Assembly: GCA_021325635.1 (NCBI GenBank)
Contig: JAJPGV010000046.1
Coordinates: 1-64,000, forward strand
Reading direction: 5' to 3'
From: Chloroflexota bacterium
GTDB taxonomy: Bacteria > Chloroflexota > JAJPGV01
Length of the DNA stretch: 64,000 nucleotides
Shown one piece after another: positions 7,652 through 61,699 of the stretch. The position numbers were made by a program, and so were the translations under genes. The first letter of the stretch is position 1; each line of letters opens with the position of its first letter. Below the pieces are notes generated by a model, which was not told the DNA's origin, did no database searches, and saw only the letters and a list, made by a program, of their open reading frames with translations.

Positions 7652-10309
7652 CTATACGCTCCAGCGGCCTTTCAGGTCGAACAGCACGTTGAGCGCTTCC
7701 AGCGGAGTCATGTTCAGGGGATCCAGCCGCGCCAGCTCATTCCGCAGCGCGTCGTCGGGCGCGAACAGCGACAGCTGCTGGGCCAGGCTGCCATTGCTGC
7801 TTGGCGCGATGGCGCGCGAGCCCTCGAGCTGCTCCAACAGCTCCTCCGCCCGGTGCAGCACGCCGCGTGGCAGCCCCGCCAGCTTGGCCACGTGGATGCC
7901 ATAGCTGCGGTCGGCCCCTCCCGGCGCCACCCGCCGCAGGAACACCACCTGACCCTGATCCTCCAGCACGTCCATGTGGAAATTGCGCACCCTGGGCAGC
8001 TGCTGCTCCAGCGCCGTCAGCTCGTGGTAGTGCGTTGCGAATAGCGTCTTCGCGCCGCAGGCCGGGTGATTGTGGATGTACTCCACAACGGCCTGGGCGA
8101 TAGCCAGCCCGTCGTACGTCGACGTGCCCCGACCAACCTCATCCAGGATGATCAGCGACCGTGGCGTCGACGATTGCAGGATCAGACTCGTCTCGACCAT
8201 CTCGACCATGAAGGTCGATTGTCCCGACGCCAGGTCGTCCTGTGCGCCGACCCTGGTGAAGATGCGGTCCACCAGCCCGATGCGGGCCGACGTCGCGGGC
8301 ACAAAGCTGCCAATCTGCGCCATGAGCGTGATCAACGCCACCTGGCGCAGGAAGGTCGACTTGCCCGCCATGTTCGGACCGGTGAGGACCACCAACTGGC
8401 AGTCTCGGCGGTCCAGGTGGCAGTCGTTCGGGACGAACTCACCCGCCGGCAGATTCAGCTCCACGACGGGATGGCGTCCGTCGGTGATGTCGATGCGGTC
8501 GCCCAGATCGAGCCCGGGCCGGCAGTAGCGCCGGCCGATCGCCAGCTGGGAGAAGCCTGCCAGCACGTCCAGCTCGCCGACGACGGCGGCGACGCTGCCA
8601 ATCGGCCCGGCCCAGCCCGCGATCTCCTCGCGGACCCGATCGAACAGGCGCGCTTCGATCTCCGCTCGCTGCTCCTGCGCGTTGAGCACGATCGACTCGT
8701 ACTCTTTCAGCTGCGGCGTGATGTAGCGCTCGCCACCCGTCAGCGTCTGCTTGCGCACGTAGTCCGGCGGAACCTGGTCGCGGTTCGAATTGCTGACCTC
8801 GATGTAGTAGCCGAAGACCTTGTTGAAGCCCACCTTCAAGCCGCGGATGCCCGTCCGCTCGCGCTCGCTCGCTTCCAGCCCGGCAATGTAGCTCCTGGCC
8901 TCGCTGGCTCCCTCCAGGAGCGCGTCCAGCTCGGGCGCGAAGCCCAGCCGGATCACGCCGCCCTCGGCCATGACCGCCGGCGGATCATCGACGATCGCTC
9001 GAGCGATCAGCAACACCACATCGGGGAAGGGCCGCAGCCTGGCCCCAAGCTCAGCCAGAGGGCCGCTCTCATCGACGGCCAGCGCACGCTGCAGCGCGGG
9101 AATCTGCTCCAACGCCGACTTCAGCGCCACCGCGTCGCGCGGCGAGGCAAGGCGCTGCACACAGCGGTTGATCAGCCGCTCGACGTCCGGCAGGTGTGAC
9201 AGCACCACGCCGACCTCCTGCGCCGCCACCGCGCTGCCGTTGAGCGCGGCCACAACCGCCAGCCTGCGGTTGAGCTGATCGAGATCGAGCAGTGGCATCG
9301 CCAGCCAACGCCGCAGCAGCCGGCCGCCCATCGGGGTGCGCGTAGCATCGAGCGTTGCCAGCAGCGATCCCTGGTGCTCGCCCTTGGCGGTACGCACGAT
9401 CTCCAGATTGCGGCGCGAGTACTGGTCCAGCGTCATGAAGCCGTCGACTGAGTACGTGCGCAGCTCGGACGTGGTGAGCCGCAGGCTCTTCCGCGTCTGG
9501 CCGAGATAGTGCAGCAGCCCGCCCGCAGCGGGCAGAGCCAGCGGCAGCTCTTCCAAGCCAAAGCCCTGCAGCGTTGCCACCTCCAGCTGGCGCTGCAGGG
9601 TCTCACGGCAGTTCTCGGGGTCGAACATCCAGGCATCGGCCCAGCTCACCGCGCGGTCGCCGGCCAGTCGCTTCAGATCCTCCATCTGGCTGGCTGGAAA
9701 CAGGCACTCGGTTGGATCGATGCGGTCGATTTCCCGCTGGGCCTCGGCGACCCCGGACAGCTGCGTGGCTGCGAACTCTCCGGTGGAAGCGTCGATATAG
9801 GCCAGGCCGAACGAGCGATCAGCCTCCCTATCGTTACCCTTGGCCGCCCCCATGCTCGCGAACAGCGCCAGCAGGTAATTGTTTCGCTCGCCCGGGAGCA
9901 GCGAGGCCTCCAGCACCGTGCCCGGCGTCAGCACCCGCATGACGTCGCGCTCCATCATCTTCGAGCCCGGCTCGCCCAGCTGCTCAGCCATAGCCACCTT
10001 GAAACCGCGGGCGATCAGCCGCGCCAGGTAGTTGTCGACGGCGTGATGCGGCACACCAGCCATCGGCACCCGCTCGCCCTTGGCCATCGGGCGCGAGGTA
10101 AGCGTGATCTGCAGCTCCCGAGCCACCAGCTTGGCGTCGTCGTCGAAGGTCTCGTAGAAGTCGCCCAGCCGGAAGAACAGGATGGTGTCGGGGTGCTGCT
10201 TCTTGAGGGCGAGGTACTGGCGGCGCAGCGGTGTGCTGGCCGCGCCCGAAAGGGCCTGCTCCGATCCCTGGCCGGCAGCCGGCCGATCGCGCGCGAGCTC
10301 GCTATCCAA
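7652..10309 (-). CDS. mutS: DNA mismatch repair protein MutS
   Basis: Recognises mismatches and small loops in DNA and signals repair by ATP-driven sliding-clamp formation. 885 residues, complete. The mismatch-wedge motif is F51-Y52-E53 in GDFYETF. The Walker A GPNMAGKST is at 644-652, and the Walker B LIILDE with the following GRGTSTYDG near 719-733. The helix-turn-helix dimer region FATHYHEL follows. The C-terminal tail ends with LEALNVLFDLKG. The start is a TTG, leaving only 26 bases to the divergent cyclophilin ATG. No mutL is nearby. Confidence 0.97.
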   Translation of the reverse strand: MDSELARDRPAAGQGSEQALSGAASTPLRRQYLALKKQHPDTILFFRLGDFYETFDDDAKLVARELQITLTSRPMAKGERVPMAGVPHHAVDNYLARLIARGFKVAMAEQLGEPGSKMMERDVMRVLTPGTVLEASLLPGERNNYLLALFASMGAAKGNDREADRSFGLAYIDASTGEFAATQLSGVAEAQREIDRIDPTECLFPASQMEDLKRLAGDRAVSWADAWMFDPENCRETLQRQLEVATLQGFGLEELPLALPAAGGLLHYLGQTRKSLRLTTSELRTYSVDGFMTLDQYSRRNLEIVRTAKGEHQGSLLATLDATRTPMGGRLLRRWLAMPLLDLDQLNRRLAVVAALNGSAVAAQEVGVVLSHLPDVERLINRCVQRLASPRDAVALKSALEQIPALQRALAVDESGPLAELGARLRPFPDVVLLIARAIVDDPPAVMAEGGVIRLGFAPELDALLEGASEARSYIAGLEASERERTGIRGLKVGFNKVFGYYIEVSNSNRDQVPPDYVRKQTLTGGERYITPQLKEYESIVLNAQEQRAEIEARLFDRVREEIAGWAGPIGSVAAVVGELDVLAGFSQLAIGRRYCRPGLDLGDRIDITDGRHPVVELNLPAGEFVPNDCHLDRRDCQLVVLTGPNMAGKSTFLRQVALITLMAQIGSFVPATSARIGLVDRIFTRVGAQDDLASGQSTFMVEMVETSLILQSSTPRSLIILDEVGRGTSTYDGLAIAQAVVEYIHNHPACGAKTLFATHYHELTALEQQLPRVRNFHMDVLEDQGQVVFLRRVAPGGADRSYGIHVAKLAGLPRGVLHRAEELLEQLEGSRAIAPSSNGSLAQQLSLFAPDDALRNELARLDPLNMTPLEALNVLFDLKGRWSV

Positions 10310-18032: not shown

Positions 18033-18761
18033 CTAGGCGAGCCCAGCGTGGCGGGCGCGGGAGACGTAGTGGTCCCACGTTTTCTGCAGCGGCCGCTCAT
18101 CATACACGCCAGCCATGTCGGCCATCTCCTGCTGTGTGAAGCCGCTCGGCCGGCCGATCTGCAGGGCGAGATGCTGGCGCAGCGCGTTCTCCTCGAGGAA
18201 GAGCGCTGCCACGAACGCGTCGCGCAGGCTGCTGCCGACAACCACCGAGCCATGGTTGCGCATCACGCAGGCACGCCCCTGCCCCAGCATGCGTGCCAGC
18301 GCATCGCCCTGTTGCGGGCTGCGCACCAGGCGCGGATCGGGATAGGTCGGAACCGGCCCAGGTCCAAGCAGGGTAGCGTTGTTGGTGACCGGAACGATGT
18401 CCACCCCGGCAATACCGAACACCGTGGCCATGCGTGAATGGGCATGAACCACGGCCTGCACGTCGGGACGCGCCCGGTATATCCGGGTGTGGATGAACAG
18501 CTCGCTGGGCGGCGGCTGGTCGCCCTCTACCAGCCGGCCATCGAGATCGATCGTGACGAGGTCTTCAGCCCGCACGTCGAGGCGAGGCGTGGAGTGAGGG
18601 TGAATCAGCACCTGGCCCGTCTCGGGCCGGCGCACGCTCACGTGACCGCTCTGGTCGAACAGGCCCTCATAGGCGAGCATCCGACAGGCCAGCGCCAGCT
18701 GCTCCGCGAGATCAGGGCGCCCATGGCCTCGTGTCGCGGCACCGAACGGATTCATCGGCAC
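18033..18761 (-). CDS. Class II aldolase/adducin family protein
   Basis: Zinc-dependent aldolase or epimerase fold, as in fuculose-1-phosphate aldolase. 242 residues. The zinc ligands are His106 and His108 in VVHAHSR and His170 in MRNHG, with catalytic-type Glu87 in PSELFIH. GLFDQSGHVSVRRP at the N-terminus is typical. The substrate is unknown. It converges on chrA, and a second, only distantly similar class II aldolase is encoded at 22.2 kb. Confidence 0.9.
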   Translation of the reverse strand: MPMNPFGAATRGHGRPDLAEQLALACRMLAYEGLFDQSGHVSVRRPETGQVLIHPHSTPRLDVRAEDLVTIDLDGRLVEGDQPPPSELFIHTRIYRARPDVQAVVHAHSRMATVFGIAGVDIVPVTNNATLLGPGPVPTYPDPRLVRSPQQGDALARMLGQGRACVMRNHGSVVVGSSLRDAFVAALFLEENALRQHLALQIGRPSGFTQQEMADMAGVYDERPLQKTWDHYVSRARHAGLA

Positions 18762-19088
18762 ACATGGTAGCCCGGAAAATACAAATCCCGACTAATCGAA
18801 AGAGCGCTTTCGCGACCACACGTCCGGCACCGCTGCCCTGGCCGGCTCGCGCCTGCCACGGCCCCGGCTTCGCCCAACGAGCATTCGGTCTGCTTCCAGC
18901 GTCTCGCGACTACTCGGGATTCGCAGGGCTCATGCTAGGCCACGCGGATACCGATGCAAGAGGTTTTCCCGCTCATTCGGACAAACGACCGGCGGTTTGG
19001 CCGGTGCCCACAACGGGGATGCTTCAGGCATGGCTGCTTCAGCTCACCACGTCGAATTTCACCCACCGCGTGCTTGAATAGCGGCAGC
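18762..19088. other. Intergenic region, no gene seen
   Basis: Lies between the class II aldolase and the CoA-transferase, which diverge. A short imperfect palindrome, CGAAAGAGCGCTTTCG, lies near 18797-18812. The CoA-transferase frame stays open through the right half (from 18954), but that stretch does not resemble the family N-terminus. Confidence 0.5.
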
Positions 19089-20279
19089 GTGACCAAGCCG
19101 CTCGACGGGATAACCGTGCTTGACCTCACCAGGGTGCTGGCCGGCCCCTACTGCGCCATGATGCTGGGCGACTTCGGCGCCGACGTCATCAAGGTCGAGC
19201 AGCCCCAACGAGGCGACGACACCCGCCAATGGGCTCCGCCTTCGGCCGGGGGCGAAAGTGCCTACTACCTGTCTGCCAATCGCAACAAACGCAGCATCAC
19301 CCTGAACCTGGGACACCCCGCGGGCCGGGATCTGCTGCTGCGGCTAGCGCAGCAGGCTGACGTCTTGATCGAAAACTTCAAGCAGGGCGGCGTTGAGCAG
19401 CTGGGGGCCGGCTATGACAAGCTGAGCAGGGTGAACCCCGGGCTGGTCTACTGCTCGATCAAGGGTTACGGCCATGGCAGCCCATACCAGGACCTGCCTG
19501 GCTACGACTTCGTCATCCAGGCCCAGAGCGGGATCATGAGCATTACCGGCGTCCCGGCAGGAGAGCCGGTCAAAGTAGGTGTGGCGGCGGTCGACGTCGC
19601 CACCGGCATGTACGCCTGCTCAGCCATCCTGGCGGCGCTGCGCGAACGCGATCGCTCAGGCGCGGGCCAATACGTCGAGCTGTCACTGCTCGACAGTGCC
19701 CTCGCCTGGCTGGTGAATGTGGCCAGCAGCTACCTGGTAAGCGGGCAGGAGCCGCGGCGCTACGGCAACGCTCACGCGTCCATCGTGCCCTACCAATCGT
19801 TCAGGGTGAGTGACGGCTATATCGCCCTGTCAGTCGGCAATGACCTGCAGTTCCGTGCTTTGGCCGAGATCGCCGGCGCACCGCAGCTGGCGAACGACGG
19901 GCGCTTCCTCACCAACCCGCTGCGTGTGAACAACCGTGAAGCGCTCATCGAGCTGCTGGAGCCGATCTTCGCCAGCCGAACGACAGCGCAGTGGCTCACG
20001 GCGCTGGCCGCTGCCGGCATCCCTGCCGGGCCGATCAACAGCGTGCCCCAGATCCTCAATGATCCTCACGTGGCGGCGAGGCAAACCGTGCTCGAAGTCC
20101 CACACCCCACCGCGGGATCGATCAGGATGGTGGCGCCACCCTACCGTCTGTCGCGCACGCCAGCCACCATCGACCGCCACCCACCGCTGCTCGGCGAGCA
20201 TACGGACGAGGTGCTCAGCCAGAAGCTGGGCCTTGGCGAGACCGAGATTGCGCGGCTGCGCCGGGATGGAGCTATCTGA
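19089..20279 (+). CDS. Family III (CaiB/BaiF) acyl-CoA transferase
   Basis: Moves CoA between carboxylic acids by a stepwise mechanism. 396 residues from the GTG at 19089, which gives the canonical start VTKPLDGITVLDLTRVLAGP. An in-frame start at 18954 would add 45 atypical residues. The catalytic-type Asp lies in VDVATGMYA. Other family blocks are FGADVIKVE, NRNKRSITLNL, ADVLIENFK and YCSIKGYGHGSPY. The acid substrate is unknown. Nearby aldolases and an amidohydrolase fit a catabolic neighbourhood. Confidence 0.94.
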   Translation: MTKPLDGITVLDLTRVLAGPYCAMMLGDFGADVIKVEQPQRGDDTRQWAPPSAGGESAYYLSANRNKRSITLNLGHPAGRDLLLRLAQQADVLIENFKQGGVEQLGAGYDKLSRVNPGLVYCSIKGYGHGSPYQDLPGYDFVIQAQSGIMSITGVPAGEPVKVGVAAVDVATGMYACSAILAALRERDRSGAGQYVELSLLDSALAWLVNVASSYLVSGQEPRRYGNAHASIVPYQSFRVSDGYIALSVGNDLQFRALAEIAGAPQLANDGRFLTNPLRVNNREALIELLEPIFASRTTAQWLTALAAAGIPAGPINSVPQILNDPHVAARQTVLEVPHPTAGSIRMVAPPYRLSRTPATIDRHPPLLGEHTDEVLSQKLGLGETEIARLRRDGAI

Positions 20280-22233: not shown

Positions 22234-22983
22234 CTAGGCCGAATCTTCTCCAGCTAACGAGCAGTAATATTTCCAGCTGGCCAGCATGCCGGCCTCGCCG
22301 CCGGCGGAGCCACGCGTGCGCGCGGCTCGCTCGGGACGGCGGTACTCCGCGATGTCCTCATCAGGGATGGTCTGCGGCGAACCGAGCAGGTGGGCCTTGT
22401 AGTTCATGCTCACCAGGTGGTTCAGCGCCATCACCCGAACCGTGGCGTCCTCCACGCTGCTACCGACCACGGTTACACCATGGCCGCGCATCAACGCCGC
22501 CTGCTTGTCGCCCATGAATGCCGCGAACTGTTCACCCAGCTGATCGTCATGGATGGTGATGCTGCGCTGGAACGTGGGGATGCCCTCCACCGCCATGCGC
22601 GCGCCCGGTGCGTAGGCGCCGTAGATCGGCAGTACCTCCTTGCCGCACACGGTGAGCAGCACCGCGTACTCCGGGTGCACGTGGATAACGCTGCGAACCT
22701 GCGGGTTCTTCTTGTACATCCACAGGTGCAGATAGCTCTCGCTGGGCGGCTGCAGACCCTCCGCCCCGGCCACCTTGTCGGCGTTGAAGTCCACGGTCAG
22801 GATGTCGCTGGCGCGGGTGTAGCGCAGGCCCACCTCATCCGGTCCCTTGCCCTTGATCAGCATCGTGTCCGAGTCGCCCAAGCGGCAGCTCACGTGGCCG
22901 AAAGCGGCGTGGGTGATGTCCAGCTTGCCCAGGACCCGGCAAGCCCGGGCCACCAGCTCGATCAGCGCCGGGTCGGCGTTCAT
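22234..22983 (-). CDS. Class II aldolase/adducin family protein
   Basis: Predicted zinc-dependent aldolase or decarboxylase, 249 residues. Zinc ligands are His101 and His103 in VIHVHPEY and His168 in MRGHG. Glu82 is in PSESYLHLW. The start is placed at the ATG that overlaps the upstream amidohydrolase stop (ATGA), which implies translational coupling. A longer frame reaching 23304 runs antisense-like inside the amidohydrolase gene and is rejected. It is the second gene of a two-gene operon in the 22-27 kb cluster. Confidence 0.92.
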   Translation of the reverse strand: MNADPALIELVARACRVLGKLDITHAAFGHVSCRLGDSDTMLIKGKGPDEVGLRYTRASDILTVDFNADKVAGAEGLQPPSESYLHLWMYKKNPQVRSVIHVHPEYAVLLTVCGKEVLPIYGAYAPGARMAVEGIPTFQRSITIHDDQLGEQFAAFMGDKQAALMRGHGVTVVGSSVEDATVRVMALNHLVSMNYKAHLLGSPQTIPDEDIAEYRRPERAARTRGSAGGEAGMLASWKYYCSLAGEDSA

Positions 22984-24188
22984 GCAGCTGTCGACGCTGC
23001 GCCCACCGCTTCCCGCGCCGGAGCAGCGTCCAGGTGGAAGAAGTCGATGACGTTGCCGGCAACCATGGCGTAGCGCTCGTCGGCCGGCACGCCTGCCATG
23101 TTCTCCTCGATGATGCGCAAGGATTCCGGCCAGTCCGAATCCTGGTGCGGGAAATCGGAAGCCCAGATCAGCCGCTTCACGTCCAGCCGGTGGCGTATCT
23201 CGACACCGATCGGGTCGTGCTGGAAGCCCCACGAGAAGTGCTTGCGCAGGTATTCGCTCGGGCGGCGGCGAAGCGGCTTCCAGCCCAGCAGCTCCTCGGC
23301 CCACTTGCTGTGCCGGTCGAAGCGCACGTCGGCCATGTGGAAGAACAGCGGCAGCCAGCCAATCTGGTTCTCGGCAAAGAAGATGTGCAGATCGGGGAAG
23401 CGGTCAAATAGGCCGTCCAGGACCAACTGCACGGCGTTGATCCCGCCGACGCGAGCGAACTTGCACAGCTGTGATGGGAAGTCCCGGGTGCGGCTGATAC
23501 GCTCGGCCGCCTCCTTGTCGGGGGCGTTGGGGAAGGTTAGCAGTGGCCCTTTCGGCCGCTGGAACTCGACGTGCACGGTGAGCGGCATACGCATGTCGAG
23601 GGCCGCCGCCCAGAAGCGATCGTCCTCGGGAGTCGGATAGGCCTTGCCGCTGGGGAGGCTGCTGAGCGCCACGCCCTTCAGGCCCAGCTTGCGACAGCGC
23701 TCCATCTCGGCGATAGCGTCATCCACGCCGGTGACCGGCAGCATGCCCAGACCGATCAAGCGGTCCGGGTCCACCGCGCAGTATTCCTCCGCCAGGTAGT
23801 CGTTGTAGGCGCGAAGGACGGCTTTGAACGCCTCGTCGTCGGCGATGCTGCGCCACAGCCGCGGGCCGGATGCACCCGGGAACAGCACCTCGGCGTCGAT
23901 GCCATCCTGGTCCTGCTCATGCAGGCGCTGCTGAGGCGAGCCAGTACCAGGCGTGGTAGCGTAATTCTGGGCAAAGGGTCGCCAGCGCTCCCGGCCCTTG
24001 CCGCCGTACAGGTCGGAAGCATTCTCGCGCAGCGGCTGGCCTTCCACCATCCACACGTCCGTGCCGTCCTGCAGGTGCAGCACCCGCGGAGCCCGGTCAC
24101 GATGCACTTCCGGAACGCGGTTGATCCACACCTTGGAGTCGATCTCGAGGTGCGAATCCCCCGAGATGTAGCGATAGCTCTTAGCCAA
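22980..24188 (-). CDS. Amidohydrolase family protein (ACMSD/resorcylate decarboxylase-like)
   Basis: 402 residues of the amidohydrolase-2 group, whose members hydrolyse or decarboxylate ring compounds with one divalent metal. The N-terminal metal site is reduced to D-S-H in ISGDSHLEID. Later ligands are probably the His of LTVHVEF and the region LFFAENQIGWLP. The closing motif IWASDFPHQDSDWP carries the conserved metal Asp. The start is a TTG behind GGAGGA. It is coupled to the class II aldolase downstream and diverges from a pair of heme-oxygenase-fold genes, so it is probably part of one pathway. The substrate is unknown. Confidence 0.9.
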   Translation of the reverse strand: MAKSYRYISGDSHLEIDSKVWINRVPEVHRDRAPRVLHLQDGTDVWMVEGQPLRENASDLYGGKGRERWRPFAQNYATTPGTGSPQQRLHEQDQDGIDAEVLFPGASGPRLWRSIADDEAFKAVLRAYNDYLAEEYCAVDPDRLIGLGMLPVTGVDDAIAEMERCRKLGLKGVALSSLPSGKAYPTPEDDRFWAAALDMRMPLTVHVEFQRPKGPLLTFPNAPDKEAAERISRTRDFPSQLCKFARVGGINAVQLVLDGLFDRFPDLHIFFAENQIGWLPLFFHMADVRFDRHSKWAEELLGWKPLRRRPSEYLRKHFSWGFQHDPIGVEIRHRLDVKRLIWASDFPHQDSDWPESLRIIEENMAGVPADERYAMVAGNVIDFFHLDAAPAREAVGAASTAA

Positions 24189-24268
24189 AACAGTCCTCCA
24201 CGCTTTTCCTGTAACTCGCCCAAACTATGGTATACAAATGAGCAGTCTGCCCGCACGAGGAGCCTGCC
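24189..24268. promoter_or_regulatory. Shared divergent promoter region
   Basis: An 80-base gap between the divergent amidohydrolase and HDO-like genes. Its centre is A+T-rich around the palindrome GTATAC, and TATGGT/TATACA-like -10 boxes can be drawn on either strand. Good ribosome sites, GAGGAG (right) and GGAGGA (left), flank it. One shared regulator is likely, but no clear operator is seen. Confidence 0.45.
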
Positions 24269-25051
24269 ATGTTGTACGAGCCACCCTATGGACCCGAAGA
24301 CCTCAAGGAGCCACCGCTAGACGGGCAGGCCTTCATCAACTTCCTGGAGATGGAGCGGGCTCGCAAGTACCCTGAGCCGCCCCCCTTCTACCAGAGCCTT
24401 TACGCCGGCAAGCTGCGAACCGAAGATCTGCAGCTGTGGGTCAAGGACATGTACTCCTACTGGGACCACGCGCTGGTCTACAGCACCGGGGCCATCCTGA
24501 TCAAGAGCAACGACGAGGCCACCCGCACCCACATCCTCAAGAAGCTGGTCTACCTCGAAGGCAAGGACGTGGTGAAGGACCTCACCGGTTGGACCACGCC
24601 GGCTTACGAGGAGCTCTGGATTCGCTTCGGCCAGGGTCTGGGCCTCACCAAGGGCGACATCCAGAGCTGGAAGCCCTTCACCCGCAGCTACTACGCGCAA
24701 AGCACGCTGTGCATGCTCTCCCGCTGGTGGGAGTGGAGCTGGCTCGACGGCGTTGCCAGCATGCTGGCCGGTGACCTGCATCATCAGGAGTACCTGGGAC
24801 GCGCGCAGGAGGCGCTGCAGAAGCACTACAACGTACCGGAGAAGAGCCTCGAGTTCTTCCGGGTCTTCGCCGAGGACGTCAAGGAGCACATCCCCTGGGA
24901 GCGGGAGACGCTGTCCTACTGGGCCTGCACCAAGGAGCGCCAGCTGACCGCGGCCAAAGCCTTCCGCTATCGACTGGACATCGAGAACCAGCTTCTGCTG
25001 CGCGTGCATACCGCCGCCGAGAGCGGCAGCCTGCCACTGCAGGTGCCATAG
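24269..25051 (+). CDS. Heme-oxygenase-fold protein (PqqC/TenA-like), gene 1 of a pair
   Basis: 260 residues, all-helical, resembling the PqqC/TENA superfamily and its non-heme di-iron oxidase branch. Candidate metal or active-site residues are Glu97 (LEGKD), His171/His172 and Glu174 (DLHHQEYL), and Glu201, Asp203 and His207 (FAEDVKEH). The aromatic run SRWWEWSWLDG (151-161) is distinctive. It starts at an ATG behind GAGGAG and is followed 33 bases later by a second member of the same fold, so the two probably form a heteromeric or sequential enzyme pair. The reaction is unknown. Confidence 0.75.
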   Translation: MLYEPPYGPEDLKEPPLDGQAFINFLEMERARKYPEPPPFYQSLYAGKLRTEDLQLWVKDMYSYWDHALVYSTGAILIKSNDEATRTHILKKLVYLEGKDVVKDLTGWTTPAYEELWIRFGQGLGLTKGDIQSWKPFTRSYYAQSTLCMLSRWWEWSWLDGVASMLAGDLHHQEYLGRAQEALQKHYNVPEKSLEFFRVFAEDVKEHIPWERETLSYWACTKERQLTAAKAFRYRLDIENQLLLRVHTAAESGSLPLQVP

Positions 25052-25084
25052 TAACGAAACAGCCCACGACGAGGAGGACGACCC

Positions 25085-25810
25085 ATGGCGATTGCTGAGA
25101 TGAAACGCGAAGGTGAGGCGCTGCCGCCCGACCAGCTGATTGAGGAGCTGGAGGCTGTGCGCAAGGAGTTCCTGTCCGGCAAGACGCTGCGGCCACGCAA
25201 TATTCCCAAGAGCAAGGACGAGGTCATCCAGGCCAAGCTTCGCCACCACGTCGGCAATGCTGTGCAGAACCACAAGTTCGTGGGTGAGAAGTACCTCAAC
25301 TGTGAGGACAAGGCGCTGCGCCGGATGAACCTGCGCAAGATGGTCGACGAGTGCGGCCAGACTTCGGTCGGCGTCGGCCTGCCCAGCCACCCCACGCTGG
25401 CTCGCTGGGGCTCCCACGCCTTCGGCATCACCGACGAAGAGATCAACAAGCTCGAAAAGGAAGACCTGCCGGCCGATCGCATGATGTGGCAGTGCACCAA
25501 AGTCAACCTGCACCGCACGTCCCATTGGGCCATCGACACCGCCATGTCACTGGTCGGCGAAGGCGAGAAGCTGCGCCCGGAGATCCGCCAGCAGCTGCTC
25601 GATCACATCGAGGCGCTCAAGCAGGAATACACCGCCATGGGCATCGAGGACGTCGAGAAGGCGCTGGCCTTCGAGATCGAGCACGCGGCCGTCGACGTGG
25701 AGCATGGAGAGCTGGCCGTCACCGCGGTGCGGAAGTTCATCAAGACGCCTGAGCTGCAGGACGAGTTCCGCCGCGCGTTCATTCTCACCCTCCAGCAGGG
25801 ACACGCGTAA
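25085..25810 (+). CDS. Heme-oxygenase-like di-iron oxidase candidate, gene 2 of a pair
   Basis: 241 residues of the same superfamily as the preceding gene, but clearly diverged. The C-terminal helix carries H200-x3-D204-x2-H207 (EHAAVDVEHGE), the ligand spacing of di-iron members such as CADD and SznF. An earlier helix has Glu89 and His102 (VDECGQ...SHPTLARW), and His143/His147 follow. This supports a metal-dependent oxygenase instead of a classical thiaminase. A strong GAGGAGGA ribosome site lies just upstream of the ATG. A bidirectional terminator follows the stop. Confidence 0.78.
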   Translation: MAIAEMKREGEALPPDQLIEELEAVRKEFLSGKTLRPRNIPKSKDEVIQAKLRHHVGNAVQNHKFVGEKYLNCEDKALRRMNLRKMVDECGQTSVGVGLPSHPTLARWGSHAFGITDEEINKLEKEDLPADRMMWQCTKVNLHRTSHWAIDTAMSLVGEGEKLRPEIRQQLLDHIEALKQEYTAMGIEDVEKALAFEIEHAAVDVEHGELAVTAVRKFIKTPELQDEFRRAFILTLQQGHA

Positions 25811-25829
25811 GACGACGCAAAAGGACGTG

Positions 25830-25861
25830 AAAAAAGGGAGGAGCAAGCTCCTCCCTTTTTT
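25830..25861. terminator. Bidirectional intrinsic terminator
   Basis: A nearly perfect hairpin, AAAAAAGGGAGGAGC followed by its reverse complement across a 2-base centre, with A6 before and T6 after the GC stem. It ends both the HDO pair (rightward) and the solute-binding lipoprotein gene (leftward); its last base is the first base of that gene's stop triplet. Confidence 0.95.
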
Positions 25862-26916
25862 CAGTACTGTCCCAGTCCGCGTTTCGCCGCGTCGTTCACA
25901 AAGCTCAGATCGAGCAGGGCGGCCAGCTTGTCGTCGGAGAGCGCGGGGGTGTCCTTGGGAAGCTGCGAGATGATGTCGGCAAAGTCCTCTTTGGCCACTG
26001 TCGGGACTTTCGCCAGCAGCTCGGACTGACGCTCCCACAGCTTCTCCATCTGCGCCTGGTCTTCGAGCTTGTAGTGCAGGCGCATGGCAGCCACGGCCTC
26101 AGCTTTGTGACTCTTGTAGTAGCGCGCCGCGTCGAACAGGCTATCCACCAGCCGCTGCACCACGTCACGATGCTGCGCGATGAACGGCGTCCGCAGCGTG
26201 ACGACCTGTGACGCCACGTGGACGTCCGTCTCGGCAAAGTCCACCAGCACGTGGAAGCCGCCCTGCGCCACCAGCTTATCGGCAAAGTCGGTGGTGAGCG
26301 CGCCCGCGTCGATCTGGTGGCTCAGCAGCTGGGCGGCGATGCCCGCCTCGCTGGCCGACGATCCAGTTTCCACCAAGGTGTAGTCTTTGCCCGCTTGCAT
26401 ACCGTGGTCGGCAAGCAAGCGCTTGGCCGCCAGCGTGTTGGCCGAGGACAGCGAGCTGCCGCCAATCTTCTTGCCGCGCAGCTGCTCCACCGAGGTGATG
26501 GACGATGGCGCCACCAGGATCTCGTCATACACGTCCTCCATGGCGCCGAGGATCTTGAGCGGCGTGCCGTTGGCGTAGGCCGACAGCACCAGCGACGGGC
26601 CGGTGTGGATCAGGAAGTCCACGTCGCCGCCGATCAGCGCGCCCATGGCCGCCGAGCCATTCATGTTCTGCAGATCGACCGCTAGCCCGTGCTGCTCGAA
26701 CAGCCCATTGTCCTTGGCCACCCAGAAGTAGGTGGTCGACGGTGAGGTGCCGTTGATTGCCGACCGCAGCGCCACCGGCGCCGGTTTCGAGGACCCCGAC
26801 CCGGAGGCCGGTGCGGCCGCCGAGCCGCAGGCCGTCAGGCTGGCGAGCACCAGAGCGGACGCGGCCAGCGCTCCGGCTCTTCGGCATCGCCTGCTAGTCA
26901 CTGTCCGCCACGTCAT
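25861..26916 (-). CDS. ABC transporter solute-binding lipoprotein, NMT1/THI5 (SsuA-like) family
   Basis: 351 residues. A basic N-terminus, a hydrophobic segment and a lipobox ending L-T-A-C30 mark an exported lipoprotein anchored outside the membrane. The ligand-binding part shows the type II periplasmic-binding pattern: FWVAKDNGLFEQHGLAVDLQ, LIGGDVDFLIHTGPSLVLSA, EILVAPSSITSVEQLRGKKIG. Family ligands include sulphonates, nitrate and thiamine pyrimidine precursors. No permease or ATPase is adjacent. It converges on the HDO pair and shares their terminator, which suggests it delivers the pathway's substrate (inference). Confidence 0.9.
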   Translation of the reverse strand: MTWRTVTSRRCRRAGALAASALVLASLTACGSAAAPASGSGSSKPAPVALRSAINGTSPSTTYFWVAKDNGLFEQHGLAVDLQNMNGSAAMGALIGGDVDFLIHTGPSLVLSAYANGTPLKILGAMEDVYDEILVAPSSITSVEQLRGKKIGGSSLSSANTLAAKRLLADHGMQAGKDYTLVETGSSASEAGIAAQLLSHQIDAGALTTDFADKLVAQGGFHVLVDFAETDVHVASQVVTLRTPFIAQHRDVVQRLVDSLFDAARYYKSHKAEAVAAMRLHYKLEDQAQMEKLWERQSELLAKVPTVAKEDFADIISQLPKDTPALSDDKLAALLDLSFVNDAAKRGLGQY

Positions 26917-29101: not shown

Positions 29102-30355
29102 CTATTCGTCCCTGGCGAGGCGGATGCCGCTGAACTGCCAGCGGGCGTCGGTGGGGAAGAAGTTGCGGTAGGTGGCGCGAATGTGTGTCTCGGAGGTCGC
29201 GCACGAGCCGCCACGAAGGACATACTGGTTGCACATGAACTTCCCGTTGTATTCGCCCACCGCTCCCGGCGCCGTCCGGAAGCCGGGATAGGGCGAGTAG
29301 GCGCTGCGGGTCCATTCCCACACGTCCCCGAAGAGCTGATCCGGCGAGGTTTCGCCCCTGGGCGGCGCCGGATGATAACGTCCGCTTTCCACGAAATTGC
29401 CTCGCGTTGGGACTTCGCCCGCCGCCAGCTCCCACTCAGCCTCGCTCGGCAGCCGAGCCCCCCACCAGCGCGCGTAAGCGTCGGCTTCGAAGTAGCTCAC
29501 GTGGCACACGGGCTCGTGCGGATCGAGGGCCCGCATGCCCGAGAGTGTGAACAGCGACCATGACCCGTCCGAGCGCTCCCAATAGAGTGGCGCCCCCCAG
29601 CCACGCTCCTGCACCGTGGCCCAACCTGCCGACAGCCACAGCTCCGGCCGGCTGTAGCCCCCGTCCTCGATGAAGGCCAGGTATTCGCCATTCGTCACCA
29701 GTCGCGACGCCAGCCCGAACGGCTGGACGAATTCCTGGTGCCGAGGCTCCTCGTTATCGAAAGCGAAATCGAAGCCTTCGTGTCCTACCCACGCCAGCCC
29801 AGCGCCGTAGGATCGCCAATTCAGGCCCAGCGTCCCGGGGCCGGCCCGCAGGCCTGCCGCCGGTGAATAGGACGGACGCAGCGGATTGCAGGAGAACACG
29901 TGCTTCACGTCGGTCAGCAGCAGCTCCTGGTGCTGCTGCTCGTGGTGGACGCCCAGGGTGACGATGGCGCTCAGCCGCTCCGACTCGCGCTCGTCTCGCA
30001 GCAGCCCCGCCATGCGCTCGTCGACGTAGGCGCGATAGCGGTACACCTCGTCGAGGCTGGGACGCGACAGGAGCCCGCGCTGCGGACGCGGATGGCGCTC
30101 GCCGACAGCTTCGTAGTAGGAGTTGAACAGGTAGTTGTAGCGGTCGTCCGGCGACACATAGCTGGCAACATTCGGTCGCAGCACGAACGTCTCGAAAAAC
30201 CAGGTCGTGTGCGCCAGGTGCCACTTGGTAGGACTGCAATCGGGCATGGACTGGATGGCGCAGTCCTCGGCCGTCAGCGGCCGGCTCAGCGCCTCGGTGA
30301 AAGCGCGAACTTCGGCGTAGCGTTGGGCCAGCGCAGGCCGGTCGATGACCAGCAT
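29102..30355 (-). CDS. egtB: Ergothioneine biosynthesis sulfoxide synthase EgtB
   Basis: Non-heme iron enzyme joining a sulphur donor (gamma-glutamylcysteine or cysteine) to trimethylhistidine with O2. 417 residues. The iron triad is consistent with His49 ([11 protein letters not shown]) plus His138 and His142 ([10 protein letters not shown]). The C-terminal FGE-sulfatase-like fold has [24 protein letters not shown] and the final RGGSCAT. The start is the ATG two bases after the egtD stop, not the frame's upstream start at 30391. egtC and egtE are not beside it. Confidence 0.95.
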
Positions 30356-30356
30356 C

Positions 30357-31352
30357 TCAGCGCTCCTCGGGCACGGCCAGAGCAAGAGCAAAGCGCTCCT
30401 CTCGGTCGGTGTACCAGGCTTCAGTGCGCAGCCCAGCTTGGGCGAACGACTCGTCCACGCGCTGGCGGGTGAACTTGGCGCTGATCTCGGTTCTCATCAG
30501 CTCTCCCTCCTTGAATTCGGCGGTGAAGCCTGCCCCGGGAATGTGCACGATCTGGTTCCCAAGCGAACGCAGATGCATCTCGATCCATTGGTTCTCGCGG
30601 TCATAGCACGCCACGTGTCGGAAGCTGCCCAGGTCGAAGTCCGCCTGCAGCTCACGATTGATCACCGACAGGACGTTCAGGTTGAACTGCGCCGTCACCC
30701 CTTGAGCGTCGTCGTAGGCAGCTTCGAGCACCAGCGGGTCCTTCACCAGGTCCACGCCCAGCAAGAACGCGTCCTCGGGACCCATCAGCTGACGCACAGC
30801 CGAGAGGAACGATCGCCGCTCGTCCGGGAAGAAGTTGCCGATGGTGCTGCCGAGGAACACCACCAGCTGACGGCCAAAGCGTGGAATGCGGTCCAGGTGC
30901 TCCTTGAAGTCGCCGATGACGGCATGGATGGTCAAACCGGGAAAATCGCGCAGCAGGTCTCGCGCGGCGCGCTGCACGATTGCGTCGCTGACGTCGAACG
31001 GCTGGAACCAACGCAGCTCGCCGCTGCTGTGCGCCGCTTCGATGAGCAGCCGCGTCTTGGTGGAAGCTCCCGCGCCGAGCTCCAGGATGGAGCGGGGCTG
31101 CACACGCTGGACAACGTCCGAAGCGCACTGCCGCAGGATCGCGGCTTCAGTTCGCGTCTGGTAATACTCGGGCAGCTCGGTGATGAGCTCGAACAGCTCC
31201 GATCCACGCTCGTCATAGAACCACCGCGGTGGCAGCTCTTTCGGCTGCCTGCCAAGGCCCGCGCGCACGTCGTCGATGAGCGCCTGGCGCGTCCCTTGGC
31301 CCAGTGCGTGGAATTCGAGGGTTAGCGGCGGGGCCGTCATGACCCAGGCCAC
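30357..31352 (-). CDS. egtD: L-histidine N-alpha-methyltransferase EgtD
   Basis: Trimethylates histidine with S-adenosylmethionine to hercynine, the first step of ergothioneine synthesis. 331 residues. The SAM-binding [15 protein letters not shown] is near 89-103, the family block [24 protein letters not shown] (quoted in part) near 41-64, and [11 protein letters not shown] and [10 protein letters not shown] are typical. The egtD-egtB order with a 1-base gap between stop and start makes an operon. The internal Met5 is an alternative start. Confidence 0.96.
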
Positions 31353-31530: not shown

Positions 31531-32070
31531 TCAGGGGCGCGGCATCACCTGTCCGCACTGCTTACAGGTGCGGAGCTCCTCGGAATCGAAGAAGCGGCGA
31601 TAGGCCTGCGAGACCGGATCGTCGCGATAATCGCCCACCACGAACTGCTCCTCGTGCAGCAGGCCGCGGCACCCGGAGCAGAACCACTGGAAGCGATCGA
31701 TCTCGCCCGGCCGTCTCTTGCGCTCGATGATCAACGCCGCGGCGTCTGAAGGAAAGCGCGGCGAATGGGGCGTCCCCGCCGGGGTGTAGATCACCGACCC
31801 CTCGGGAATCACTTCCACCTCCTCGTTGCCTTCGGGCGTTAGGTAGTGCAGCCGCATCTCGCCCTTCACCTGGTACATCACCTCATCGCTGGGATTGATG
31901 TGGAACTCACTGCGATAGTCGCGTCCTCGCGCGACAAAGGCCAGCGACTCCTCCTCCTGCCACAGCACGCTCACCTGCTTGCCGGACTCGGCCAGCTGCC
32001 GCGCCGTCTCGGCCAGGTTCACCAGCGGCATCCGGAGCACGGATTTCAGCGGCGCCGTCATGCCGCGCAC
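31531..32070 (-). CDS. nbaC: 3-hydroxyanthranilate 3,4-dioxygenase
   Basis: Cupin dioxygenase opening 3-hydroxyanthranilate to the semialdehyde that leads to quinolinate/NAD or to degradation. 179 residues. The catalytic iron ligands are His57, Glu63 (FHINPSDEVMYQ) and His102 (GTPHSP). The bacterial-type C-terminal rubredoxin-like site is C131-x2-C134 and C169-x2-C172. VIPEGSVIYTPAGTPHSP is the cupin motif 2 region. No other kynurenine-pathway gene is adjacent. The amidohydrolase at 23 kb belongs to the superfamily containing ACMSD, the next enzyme after this one in degradation. Inner Met4 is an alternative start. Confidence 0.94.
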   Translation of the reverse strand: MRGMTAPLKSVLRMPLVNLAETARQLAESGKQVSVLWQEEESLAFVARGRDYRSEFHINPSDEVMYQVKGEMRLHYLTPEGNEEVEVIPEGSVIYTPAGTPHSPRFPSDAAALIIERKRRPGEIDRFQWFCSGCRGLLHEEQFVVGDYRDDPVSQAYRRFFDSEELRTCKQCGQVMPRP

Positions 32071-37106: not shown

Positions 37107-40100
37107 TTAGCCGCTCAGGAGTCCTCTCACCACGCCGGCGGCGGTCTTGGATGGCGGCGGCCCGGATGGACCTACGTCCGTGGCGTTGATGTAGGCATAG
37201 TTACCCGTATCGGGGTCGATAACCATCAGCCGGCTGCCAATCTGTGGCTCAACCACCTGCAGGTAGCTGAACTGCTGCTTGGTGCTGAAGGTCTGGGCGT
37301 TGCCTGTGTCGAAGCTCGAGAGCTCCGGCGCTTCCTGGGTGAGCACCTGTACGTACCCGACGGGATTGGTTACGACCGCCACAGTCGAGCCGATGGCATT
37401 GGTCGTCGCTAGCAGTGTGCCGGTCTGGGTATTGTTGGCCACATGCTCGGGCGGGAAGATGACGAACGTCCCGACCGGATAGTGGTTCGGATTGGCGATG
37501 TCAGGAGTATTGGCGTCCACGATATAGGACAGCGTGAGCGAGGAGGCGTTGCCATTGGCCTGCCCCACGTCGGCCGGAGCGTACTTGATTTCTATGGGGA
37601 TCGCCACCGGGAAGGTGGTGATGGGCAGTCCCGAAGCCTGATCCGTAATGACGATGCTGGCCAGTGTGCCGTTGGGGCTGAACTGCGCCGGCCCGCCCGG
37701 CGCCTGAACGTTCTGCGCGGCGGAAATGCTGATTACGGCGTGCCCGCTGGGTGCCTGGATTGCGCCCGGCGGAATGAGCATGACCACGTTACCCGCATAG
37801 ACCGCAATCGGATTGCTGGTGGTGGTCGAGAGTTGAGCCGTGATCGGTTGAACGCTGGTGCCGGTGATGAGCGCGGGATCAACTGGCAGCGGCGTGTCGG
37901 GGGCAAGCGCCGTGAGTGGGACTCCCACGAGCAGCGGGAGGTTGGCTACTCCGGTATTGGGAGATGCCCCGCCAATGACGACCGCGTCGTTGCTGGTAGT
38001 TCCGGAGCTGAAGAAACCGCTGCCAGTCGGAGGTCCACTCTGACTGGGACCGGGCCCGCTGGAAGTGCTCGCCGGGGCTGCCGTTGGCGTGGGCGTCCCG
38101 GTGGCCGTCGCGGTTTGTGTTGCCGTGCTCGTGAGCGTGGGCGTGGCAGTGGTTGTCGGCGTGGCAGTGGTTGTCGGCGTGGCAGTGGTTGTCGGCGTGG
38201 CAGTGGTTGTCGGCGTGGCGGTGGGGGTGCTGGTGAGCGCGGAATACGCAAAGCCCATGCTGAGCTTGCCGGTTTGTGCGGTATCGCCACTGACCTGCGC
38301 GGCATTCGTCACGCTCACGTCGACCGTGCCGGAGCCGGCCGGGCTCTTAGCCGTGATCGTCGCCCCATCCACGACCACGACATTGGCAGCTGCCGCCGTT
38401 CCGAAGGTCACGGCCGCTCCCGAGACGTAGCCAGTGGCATCGGGTGGAGGCAAAAAGCCGCTGCCGCTGATGGTCACCGAGTCTCCGCCGGCCGCGGACC
38501 CGCCGGTGGGCACAACGGAGGCGATCGTGGGTGGCGGAACGAGCTCGTAGGCGCCGATATCGCAGGCACCATTCCGCGGCCTGCTGACGCCACGCTGATC
38601 GACCAGGGCACCACCACCCAGCGCTGCCTTCAGCCCATTGCAGTCACCGGGCGAGAACGGGATCTTGTCAAGAGCATCGACGCTGGAGGGCAGGGTTTCG
38701 GTCAGACCACCGTAGCTGGCAAACGTACCGAGCCCGGGGTTCGTGCCCGCGACCGTAAAACCACAGCTCGTGCCATCATCGATGTTGTAACCGCCATCCG
38801 CTATGGTGCCGCTGCAATTGATCCCGTTGGCAGCGATGATGGAGTTGGCGATTGTAAGCGTTGAGCTGCCCGAATATCCGACTCCGCCGGCGCCGGAAGT
38901 GGCGACGTTACTGGCGACGGTGACGTTGGTGAGAACAGCGGGTCCGGCCCCGCTGATTGAAAGTGCTCCACCCGTCCCTTGGGTGCCGTTGTTATAGAAC
39001 GTGCTGTTGACCATCGCCAGCTGCGTCCCGGATTGCGCCAATCCGCCACCCGCGGTGAACGAGGAATTGTTGCTGCTGAAGGTCGTGCCGGCAATCGTCA
39101 GTGATGCCCCGGTCAGCGAATCTTGATTCTCGATGCCGCCACCCTCGTAGCCTTGCAGATTGCTCGGGTCGGCGCTGTTGCCATCGATTGTGCTGTTGGT
39201 TATCTGCACCGTCGCACCGGCCTGGTCCAGGCAGATGCCGCCGCCGCCAAAGCAGCTGCCGGTCGCCAAGATGCCGCTGCCATTGGCGGCATTTCCACGG
39301 ATTGTGCTGTTGGTAATGGTCAACGTCAGACCGCGGTTGAAGATGCCGCCGGCGAAATCACTGGCAACGTTGGTGCTGATCGTGCTGCTGTCGATGCCTA
39401 GAGTTCCGGAACCCCGGTTGAAGATGCCGGCGCCGAATCCCCCGGCACAGCAGCCGTCGTCGTTGGCGGAATTGTCGCTGACGGTGGCGTTGACGAGACT
39501 GACGCTGCCGTTGTCGTTGAAAATCCCACCACCGGCTCCGCCGGAGTCGGCCACGTTGGCCCTCACGATGCTGCCGCCGGTAACGCTTAACGTCCCGCTG
39601 TTATAAACGCCGCCCCCGCGACTGCTGGCCATAGGGTCATCCATGCAACAGGTCGCCACGTTCCCAGCGCCGCTTCCATCGGAGGCCTTCCCGATGACGC
39701 TCGCGTTCTGGATGGTCAGCGTTCCCGCGTTGTAGATTCCGCCACCGTCTTGGGTGGCAGTCGTGTTGCCCTGCACGCTGCTGGCGTCGATAGTCAGCGT
39801 TCCACCGTTCGTGATTCCGCCGCCCTGGCAGCCGTTGTCGAGGTTGTTGTTGGCGGTGCTCCCGTTCTGGAAGGTCATCGTGCCACCCACCTCAAGAACT
39901 CCCCCGCCGGTGTTGGTGTCGAAGTGACTGCTGTCGATCACAATGTCTCCGGAGTGAGACAGCCCACGGCCGGCGTTGCCATTGATTTGACTGCCGGTGA
40001 TATGGGACGTCCCACCAGAGGTAGCGGCGCTGATCCCGCCAAGACCGCAGCTTCCATCAATAGGTGCGAGCCCGTTGTTGTTGATCTGACTATTGGTAAT

Positions 40101-42770: not shown

Positions 42771-43022
42771 GTTGAACCCCCTGTTCGTTGGAGGCACAGC
42801 CTCCGCTGGGTCTTCCTGCCGGCCCCATCACCGTCGCCGCACCGGATCCATACAGGGCAGCAAGCGTGAGGCAACAAGTTCGTCCAACCGCACGACGAAG
42901 GGCCGCCTACGCCACGTCCCAGCCTATACGGCGTGCTGGAGTAGGTAAATTTACATAGTACTTAGGTCACGTAACAGGGCAACGAGTCTGGCCGAACGGG
43001 CTCCCGATCCGTCGCCGAGAAA

Positions 43023-56517: not shown

Positions 56518-56808
56518 TTGCTCAACTCGATAAAAGCAGCAATCGGCCGCGACGACAGGTTTTCGTTTGCCGTCGCTCAACTGCGCGCGCTCGAACCTGC
56601 CGACTGGGATGCACTGCGAAAGATGGCGATGTTTCAACGGCTCAATAAGGCGGCGTCCGCCTTCCAGATCATGGCGAAGCGACCGAAGGCGTTCGCGGCA
56701 ATTCAAGCGGCGTCGGAGATGGCTGGAGCCAAAATGCCGCCGTCCGCCAAGGCGGAAGATGTCGCGTTGCTAATTCGCGCTCTGAGCATCCTCGACGATG
56801 GCAGCTAG
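56518..56808 (+). CDS. Small protein coupled to the tape-measure gene
   Basis: 96 residues, helical (SFAVAQLRALEPADWDALRK, AFQIMAKRPKAFAAIQAA). It starts at a TTG behind AAAGGGG and overlaps the tape-measure ATG by 11 bases. In long-tailed phages the gene directly before the tape measure encodes a tail assembly chaperone. Size and position fit, but sequence alone does not prove it. Confidence 0.7.
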   Translation: MLNSIKAAIGRDDRFSFAVAQLRALEPADWDALRKMAMFQRLNKAASAFQIMAKRPKAFAAIQAASEMAGAKMPPSAKAEDVALLIRALSILDDGS

Positions 56809-58966: not shown

Positions 58967-58981
58967 GAGCTAGGCAGACGA

Positions 58982-59021
58982 AAAAGGGCGGGCAGCGCGT
59001 TTAAACGCCTCCCGCCCTTTT
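58982..59021 (+). terminator. Intrinsic terminator after the tape-measure gene
   Basis: An 11-bp stem, AAAAGGGCGGG with CCCGCCCTTTT, encloses a loop that contains the palindrome GCGTTTAAACGC. It lies 16 bases after the tape-measure stop and ends five bases before the stop of the leftward gene, so it can serve both strands. Confidence 0.92.
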
Positions 59022-59025
59022 GTCT

Positions 59026-59229
59026 CTAGGAAGCCGCCGCTCGGGCCAGCTCCTTATCGAGCAACAAGACTGCCTCGTCGGCGTCGTTCGCTAGACCGGG
59101 AAGTCGATCTCGCAGCAATGCGGCTTCCTGAACGCTCGTGGGCCAATCGAGCCCCAGGCTATTAAGCATGCGGCCGAGCGCTGGCGACGTGTAGATCCCG
59201 AAGTCGGCTATTTGGGCGGTGCGGTTCAT
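59026..59229 (-). CDS. Hypothetical small protein
   Basis: 67 residues, acidic and helical (LGLDWPTSVQEAALLRDRL, DEAVLLLDKELARA). An AAGGAGA ribosome site five bases before the ATG supports it well. No family was recognised. It diverges from the XRE-type regulator gene, which may control it. Confidence 0.7.
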   Translation of the reverse strand: MNRTAQIADFGIYTSPALGRMLNSLGLDWPTSVQEAALLRDRLPGLANDADEAVLLLDKELARAAAS

Positions 59230-59321
59230 TTTGCTCTCCTTATCTAAATAATCCGTGCAGCATCATAAATCGAAAGTAGCGTCGTTGTAGCGTACATGGT
59301 ACTTTTAGTGGAGAATGCATC

Positions 59322-59513
59322 TTGAAGCTGCCCAACCTTAGGTCTCACAGGGAAAGAGCCGCAATGACCCAGGACGAGCTGGCCAAAGCTTCCGGCATTA
59401 ACCGGATCAGCATCAGCCGAATCGAAAATGGCCGCGATGTCCGGCCGCCGACCGCTCGCAAGCTGGCCGAAGCCCTAGGGTGCCGGCCGTCCGACCTGAT
59501 GGGTAGTAACTGA
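59322..59513 (+). CDS. Small XRE-family regulator
   Basis: 63 residues, almost entirely a Cro/CI HTH: MTQDELAKASGINRISISRI, ENGRDVRPPTARKLAEALG. It starts at a TTG without a clear ribosome site; Met15 would truncate helix 1. Its TGA overlaps the next ATG (TGATG), so it is coupled to the membrane protein and, further on, the integrase. Confidence 0.85.
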   Translation: MKLPNLRSHRERAAMTQDELAKASGINRISISRIENGRDVRPPTARKLAEALGCRPSDLMGSN

Positions 59514-60019
59514 TGTTGGATCTTGCAGCCTTGGTTTCAAGCATGATAGGCGGCTTGATATCAGGCGGCCTTTCGCTAGGAGGTGTACTTGTTACGCAGG
59601 CTAAGCAAGACAGGCGAAATCGAGAGGCACGTCTCCAAGCCCTGGCTGACGACAACCGCAACCGGTTGCGCGGACTCTATCACCGATTGCTATCGGCTGT
59701 CGAAGAAATGGAATCGCTGTCCGTACAAATGTCGGGCCAACACTCAAATCAGAAGCTAATAGACGAGCGATCAATAGCGCTCAGCAAGGAGGCCAGAGCG
59801 ACCATGATTATCTTTGCCCAAGAGCACGATCCGGAAGCCCGCAAGATCTACCTGGCATTCGACGATATGTTCAACGACTTTCTCGATATCCGTGCCGACT
59901 ATTTGAAAAATCCGAGAGACCTTAGTTCGATCTCGTTCAAATCTGACGAGTTGGCGACCAAAGGCGAATCTCTCTTAGAGACCGTGCGATCGCACCTAGC
60001 CTCATTGGAACTGGCGTAA
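59513..60019 (+). CDS. Membrane-anchored coiled-coil protein of unknown function
   Basis: 168 residues. An N-terminal Gly/Ser/Leu-rich hydrophobic helix (about 5-27) is followed by a charged helix (QAKQDRRNREARLQALADDN) and further helices. No family was recognised. It is coupled to the HTH gene and followed by the integrase after one base, so all three are one transcript. Confidence 0.7.
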   Translation: MLDLAALVSSMIGGLISGGLSLGGVLVTQAKQDRRNREARLQALADDNRNRLRGLYHRLLSAVEEMESLSVQMSGQHSNQKLIDERSIALSKEARATMIIFAQEHDPEARKIYLAFDDMFNDFLDIRADYLKNPRDLSSISFKSDELATKGESLLETVRSHLASLELA

Positions 60020-60020
60020 C

Positions 60021-61217: not shown

Positions 61218-61699
61218 GACCAGATGGCCCGCTTCGCCGTTTCGGCGATAACGCCGACAAGTATCTCCTTGAAGCCTTCGCCAACGGCGGGGCCGACCTT
61301 GTTAAAAATACGCTTCACTCGTCCAACTGCCACGGGTGTCTTTGGAGTGCTCGCAACAAGGTCCGGTAGAGCGTCGCTTAACACTTGAGCATCGTCGGGC
61401 TCTAGCTCTTCTTTCGCCAGTTCGCGCGCTGCTTCTAGCTTGGCTTCGATCCACGGATACGCCTTGCCGCACTCATGGCAATGGTTCGGAGGCCGATAGC
61501 CAGCGTAGTAAAGCAATCCGCCGCCGCTTTGCTTTCCTCGGATGCCCTCATGGCAGTTTGGGCAAGCGGTGATGGTCGGCGCGCCGCAGTACTTGCAGTA
61601 CTTCTGCGATTTTTCGGGGAAGCGATCTAGCTCGCCGGTTACAGCATGGCCGTTCAAGCAGATCTGAGCGACGCCAAACCTAATAGGCATGAAGCTCAT
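61214..61699 (-). CDS. DUF2321 zinc-ribbon protein
   Basis: 161 residues. The family pattern is clear: FGVAQICLNGHAVTGE, then CKYCGAPTITACPNCHEGIRG and CHECGKAYPW, giving two or three zinc knuckles. A helical C-terminal half follows. The function is unknown. It converges on the integrase with a 4-base overlap and is the last gene before the attachment site, a usual cargo position. Confidence 0.85.
   Translation of the reverse strand: MSFMPIRFGVAQICLNGHAVTGELDRFPEKSQKYCKYCGAPTITACPNCHEGIRGKQSGGGLLYYAGYRPPNHCHECGKAYPWIEAKLEAARELAKEELEPDDAQVLSDALPDLVASTPKTPVAVGRVKRIFNKVGPAVGEGFKEILVGVIAETAKRAIWS

Follow-up and report, generated by a model that had tools for sequence, protein, structure and literature searches.

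Only about a dozen heme-oxygenase-fold dimetal oxidases (HDOs) have been functionally validated, most of them known from biosynthesis (PMC13108848). In the HDO motif, E-H-E-H-(D/E)-H, the first two residues lie on one helix with variable spacing and the last three lie close together, also with variable spacing (PMC11363339). The locus considered here is a tandem pair of heme-oxygenase-fold genes, labeled HDO-A and HDO-B, in a stretch of 64,000 nucleotides from a Chloroflexota-type metagenome-assembled genome (contig JAJPGV010000046.1), which is referred to as the window. The closest described systems are the FlcE/FlcD proteins of fluopsin C biosynthesis, the Chlamydia protein CADD (CT610), a self-sacrificing para-aminobenzoic acid synthase, and the pyrroloquinoline-quinone synthase PqqC. 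Similarly to the locus studied, the fluopsin C cluster encodes two HDO-fold proteins, one of which has a partly changed ligand set (PMC11363339). However, E-H-E-H is retained in FlcD, which binds a single iron, whereas HDO-A has lost all conserved histidines; additionally, the structure of FlcD is a homodimer, and its pathway is biosynthetic and not catabolic.

CADD resembles the pair in the heme-oxygenase-like fold of the HDO-A model (8vag/1rcw) and in the types of dimetal ligands present in HDO-B. The H-x3-D-x2-H spacing of CADD is also that of HDO-B in the window. The differences are that HDO-B matches CADD in sequence at only ~20 bits, that the E89-x12-H102 spacing of HDO-B is longer than the one in CADD, and that CADD is not described as a member of a two-gene pair. 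PqqC is the best match of HDO-A in both fold and profile, and it has no metal site, but the residues of HDO-A aligned with the catalytic H84, H154, Y175, and R179 of PqqC are not kept, and the score of 48 bits is far from the equivalog cut-off of 240 bits, so the assignment of HDO-A as a PqqC was rejected. In soluble methane monooxygenase (alpha/beta) and in yeast Rnr2/Rnr4, one subunit bears the metal, and its sister, which shares the fold, is metal-less. These can serve as a working analogy only, as theirs is the ferritin-like fold of an unrelated superfamily.

The features of the pair in the window are as follows:

24269–25051, plus strand: HDO-A, 260 aa, heme-oxygenase fold, closest to the PqqC/CADD fold; putative partner subunit
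25066–25084, plus strand: sequence between HDO-A and HDO-B with the ribosome-binding-site-like stretch GAGGAGG
25085–25810, plus strand: HDO-B, 241 aa, full E-H-E-H-D-H set; presumed catalytic subunit

Linkage and co-occurrence of HDO-A and HDO-B

The functional pairing of HDO-A and HDO-B is strongly supported by their constant adjacency and by their identical distribution among genomes. In all 14 distinct loci recovered, which represent 10 Chloroflexota genomes, the two genes are adjacent and on one strand, with gaps of 2–131 bp; in the window, the gap is 33 bp, and GAGGAGG precedes the ATG of HDO-B. The lineages differ in gene order: HDO-A comes first in the window and at locus L046, and HDO-B in the remaining twelve loci. 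Among 393 genomes of one class (that of genome G397), HDO-A and HDO-B were found in the identical seven genomes, at 11 loci each and in the same places; the hypergeometric probability of such a coincidence (7 of 393 genomes; P ~4e-15) is only a guide, as the genomes are related. Searches of a 400-genome draw from the phylum with HDO-B gave two other genomes, both with HDO-A adjoining, and both genes are present in G000, G184, and G397 of this draw. When ~85,000 species genomes were scanned with HDO-A, four loci were obtained, each of them in Chloroflexota. No match was obtained in the contig scan with the HDO-B pair alignment, the two short patterns of which were probably over-strict. In plasmid records, HDO-B was not found, and HDO-A matched only ordinary PqqC-like proteins (25–27%).

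In several genomes that have two copies, the whole pair is doubled. Locus L081 contains a remnant of HDO-A (9380–9613, plus strand), 78 residues of which match the C-terminus with 62% identity, and HDO-B was not found in that genome, which is consistent with a joint loss of the pair. The HDO-B copy of locus L065 (2749–3543, plus strand) is interrupted by an in-frame stop close to its N-terminus, either through decay or through an assembly error, and keeps all six ligand residues downstream of it.

Metal-ligand positions in HDO-B and HDO-A

The ligand residues support the assignment of HDO-B as a probable dimetal HDO. E89, H102, E159, H200, D204, and H207, which correspond in type and order to the HDO ligand set, are invariant in 15 of 15 HDO-B sequences, including those with identities as low as 34%, and of the only four invariant histidines in these sequences, three are at the expected ligand positions. 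H200-x3-D204-x2-H207 is exactly as described in a previous reading of the window made from its sequence alone (the sequence-only reading). This spacing is shared by L060, by the L064/L065 branch, and by a solo HDO-B paralogue of the window's genome, and the HDO-B proteins of other loci have two more residues between H and D. As most relatives have H-x5-D-x2-H, this spacing was dropped as a discriminating feature. A heme-oxygenase-like fold of HDO-B is suggested by profile similarity, namely, by a weak match to PF14518 (Haem_oxygenas_2; 1.4e-4, below the curated cut-off) and by the match between the HDO-B and HDO-A profiles (209 columns, probability 78, E 1.8e-5).

The heme-oxygenase-like fold of HDO-A is indicated by profiles and by a model. 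HDO-A matches PF03070 (TENA/THI-4/PqqC-like) at 2.7e-11, and its family profile matches PqqC 5vrc at 4e-12; the model, with a predicted local distance difference test (pLDDT) score of 72.6, is similar in Foldseek to 3hlx (E 4.6e-8, TM 0.73), as well as to the CADD structures. None of the histidines is invariant in the 14 HDO-A sequences, which lack the E-H-E-H-(D/E)-H set. In the alignment of the HDO-A and HDO-B profiles, the six ligand positions are occupied in HDO-A by L/I/V, Y/W, the invariant D169, F/Y/L/A, V/A/L/I, and H/D, respectively. Thus, D169, at the position of HDO-B E159, is the sole acid at a ligand position that is kept throughout. The sequence-only reading ascribed an oxidation to the two fold members jointly; its dimetal part is supported for HDO-B, and the loss of metal ligands from HDO-A was overlooked in it.

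Despite the lack of an invariant histidine, HDO-A is better conserved than HDO-B (47–59% vs. 34–46% identity to the window protein, the HDO-B duplicate of the window's own genome being excluded), and so it is under strong constraint. Its invariant polar or aromatic residues are Y62, Y64, E97, E114, R139, W156, W158, D160, and D169. An invariant cysteine, such as the catalytic one of TenA thiaminase II, which the sequence-only reading named, as part of a Cys/Glu arrangement, among the findings that would refute its proposal, is present neither in HDO-A (14 sequences) nor in HDO-B (15 sequences).

A possible two-subunit oxidase and the alternative of sequential enzymes

We assign a probability of about 0.5 to the reading that HDO-A and HDO-B constitute a two-subunit, dimetal, O2-dependent oxidase, in which HDO-B is catalytic, HDO-A is a diverged partner, and the substrate is a carboxylated ring or a poly-acid. 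In such an enzyme, an Fe/Fe or Mn/Fe cluster would be held by the six conserved residues of HDO-B. HDO-A, which would be unable to hold the cluster, might act in its assembly, in the formation of the substrate pocket, or in electron delivery. The substrate would be an aromatic or poly-carboxylic acid, and the reaction could be an oxidative decarboxylation, a desaturation, or a C-C cleavage. The presumed setting would be catabolic gene islands with Rieske, UbiD, amidohydrolase, and itaconate-type Rip genes; in the window, the oxidase may act close to an amidohydrolase and a PhtC-like decarboxylase, and perhaps also close to a CoA-transferase.

More tentatively, and at somewhat less than even odds, the pair may represent the first heteromeric HDO, that is, a dimetal oxidase for which both genes are obligatory and one of the two sister subunits is free of metal, serving the catabolism of refractory carboxylated organic matter in Chloroflexota and not natural-product biosynthesis. 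The words heterodimer and subunit are not used in the 2026 review of HDOs (PMC13108848), and no HDO paper using the word heterodimer was found in the literature searched, the coverage of which was incomplete. If the pair is indeed an HDO that always comes with a degenerate partner, subunit architecture would be added as a means of controlling a very reactive cluster. The pair would also provide a concrete, testable enzyme for the SAR202 clade and related bacteria, for which the oxidation of resistant dissolved organic matter has been proposed largely from expansions of enzyme families; heme-oxygenase or TenA genes are not mentioned in the two SAR202 papers searched.

Several observations weigh against the two-subunit oxidase. 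The only intact solo gene, an HDO-B duplicate in the window's genome (L031, 9788–10507, minus strand; 59% identity to the window HDO-B), has no adjoining HDO-A. It may mean that B functions without A or that A is shared in trans. The neighbors of this gene encode an NMT1-type binding protein and two permeases, i.e., an NMT1-type ATP-binding cassette importer, as well as a BNR-repeat-like protein. The gene trees of HDO-A and HDO-B concur on the main clades and differ on L046 and L060. The majority of HDO-B relatives have H-x5-D and not H-x3-D. The AlphaFold model of HDO-B (pLDDT 43) is all-helical and too poor to show a metal site in three dimensions, and the profile search of solved structures with HDO-B gave nothing relevant.

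Finally, the adjacency of the genes could reflect two sequential homomeric enzymes, as in the case of FlcE/FlcD. In that case, HDO-B would be the dimetal oxidase, with HDO-A working on its product as a cofactorless oxidase or another PqqC-type enzyme, or the reverse. Besides the precedent of FlcE/FlcD, where a single pathway uses two enzymes of the HDO fold (PMC11363339), this possibility is favored by the cofactorless nature of the PqqC proteins that are the nearest relatives of HDO-A and by the invariant polar and aromatic residues of HDO-A, which could build an active site. However, the strict 1:1 occurrence and the swaps of gene order fit a complex at least equally well, and the catalytic residues of PqqC are not kept in HDO-A. 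We consider sequential enzymes the main alternative to a two-subunit oxidase, although a less likely one.

Genomic surroundings of the pair and other genes of the window

The other relevant features of the window are as follows:

18954–20279, plus strand: CaiB/BaiF CoA-transferase (PF02515), ~4 kb from the pair
22234–22983, minus strand: class II aldolase-fold gene (Aldolase_II; NF053537 181 bits, cut-off 200)
22980–24188, minus strand: amidohydrolase family 2 of decarboxylase/hydrolase type (PF04909, 6.8e-25), divergent from HDO-A
25828–25863, both strands: bidirectional intrinsic terminator with a 16-pair stem and T/A tracts, common to HDO-B and the lipoprotein gene
25861–26916, minus strand: NMT1/SsuA-type solute-binding lipoprotein (PF09084, 3.8e-19; lipobox LTAC), facing HDO-B

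The gene placement given in the sequence-only reading, with the coupled amidohydrolase and aldolase genes divergent from the tandem pair and with a bidirectional terminator common to the pair and the facing lipoprotein gene, was confirmed. The start of the aldolase gene and the stop of the amidohydrolase gene share 4 bp (ATGA), which indicates translational coupling. A longer mechanical open reading frame for the aldolase (22234–23304) was judged unlikely, and 22234–22983 is preferred. The nearest named family of this protein is the 3,4-dihydroxyphthalate decarboxylase PhtC, the equivalog cut-off of which is not reached, and therefore decarboxylation appears likelier than aldol cleavage. A second class II aldolase-fold gene (18033–18761, minus strand), with 28% identity to the former, adjoins the CaiB gene. 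The best match of the lipoprotein is SsuA (SsuA_fam, 97.9 bits, below the subfamily cut-off of 163.5), and no permease or ATPase gene was seen adjoining it in the window.

At other loci, the surroundings of the pair vary. SAR202-like loci L041, L047, and L048 have a conserved run of genes encoding a CaiB CoA-transferase, an acyl-CoA dehydrogenase, a CitE/RipC-type lyase, HDO-B, HDO-A, a RipB-type hydratase, a PrpD-like protein, TcuA, and a binding-protein-like product. TcuA tricarballylate dehydrogenase is above its cut-off, the Rip matches are below equivalog cut-offs, and PrpD was named by inspection, as were the acyl-CoA dehydrogenase and ferredoxin-like genes of L064. We infer that this run resembles a route from tricarballylate through aconitate and itaconate to pyruvate and acetyl-CoA, to which the HDO pair was added. 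In comparison with RipABC itaconate degradation and TcuA, the HDO pair and the acyl-CoA dehydrogenase are extra, and the window is without most of these genes. In L061–L063, an amidohydrolase gene is directly upstream of the pair, with Rieske oxygenase and UbiD decarboxylase genes nearby; in L045, a Rieske oxygenase gene is downstream of it. The pair is accompanied by a divergent amidohydrolase gene and a CDGSH/Fer4 protein gene in L046, and by CaiB, acyl-CoA dehydrogenase, and ferredoxin-like genes in L064, so that iron–sulfur proteins are encoded close to these two pairs. Relatives of the window CaiB, which are not clear orthologues of it, occur at four other pair loci (L041, L047, L048, and L064; 33–38% identity).

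The conserved-neighborhood analysis suggested in the sequence-only reading thus upholds the linkage of the pair and not that of the aldolase or the lipoprotein. No relative of the aldolase was found at other pair loci, and the single relative of the lipoprotein near any HDO-B (26% identity) is the one at the solo paralogue. The amidohydrolases recur at several pair loci but belong to different subfamilies (20–29% identity) and are not clear orthologues, and the window's genome encodes ~20 relatives of the window amidohydrolase. Thus, different catabolic islands can carry the pair, and the five genes proposed in the sequence-only reading to serve uptake, oxidation, hydrolysis, and cleavage are not a conserved unit. 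The divergent and convergent arrangement with its common terminator, as well as the Amidohydro_2 genes upstream of the pair in L061–L063 and divergent from it in L046, would fit one dedicated pathway encoded by the whole 22–27 kb block (amidohydrolase, aldolase, pair, and lipoprotein), but the distribution of the relatives makes this improbable.

It is distinctly improbable, too, that HDO-B is not an oxidase, its conserved residues having a structural role or coordinating a different metal that takes no part in O2 chemistry. The weak family matches, the low pLDDT of the model, and the variable H-x3/5-D spacing would be compatible with this possibility, but the six invariant ligand types in the HDO order, the positions of the invariant histidines, and the oxygenase-rich contexts argue against it. 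TenA-type salvage of thiamine pyrimidine, the main alternative in the sequence-only reading, to which the TENA/THI-4 match of HDO-A and the adjoining NMT1/THI5-like binding protein could point, is highly improbable given the lack of an invariant cysteine in both proteins, the metal ligand set of HDO-B, the SsuA-type best match of the lipoprotein, the absence of a thiamine pyrophosphate riboswitch from the window, and the lack of recognizable thiamine genes among the neighbors.

Three further heme-oxygenase-fold genes are present in the window's genome (L034, 3578–4537, plus strand; L032, 9209–10012, minus strand; L033, 9728–10501, minus strand). Some of them adjoin Rieske- and UbiD-like genes, and the product of the L032 gene has H-x3-N-x2-H.

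Elsewhere in the window, the genes at 29102–31352 (minus strand), encoding an FGE-sulfatase/DinB_2 protein and a histidine-specific methyltransferase, form an EgtB/EgtD-type ergothioneine synthesis pair. A cupin gene of the 3-hydroxyanthranilate 3,4-dioxygenase family (31531–32070, minus strand) lies by the EgtD-like gene; behind it is a gene of the adenosine-deaminase family. A protein of 1896 aa encoded at 37107–42797 (minus strand), in which a TIG domain and one for pro-kumamolisin activation are present, is a candidate very large secreted-type protease. The region 56798–61875, which contains a phage tail-tape gene and a tyrosine integrase gene and is followed 0.6 kb further by tRNA-Thr(tgt), looks like a prophage or another element integrated at tRNA-Thr.

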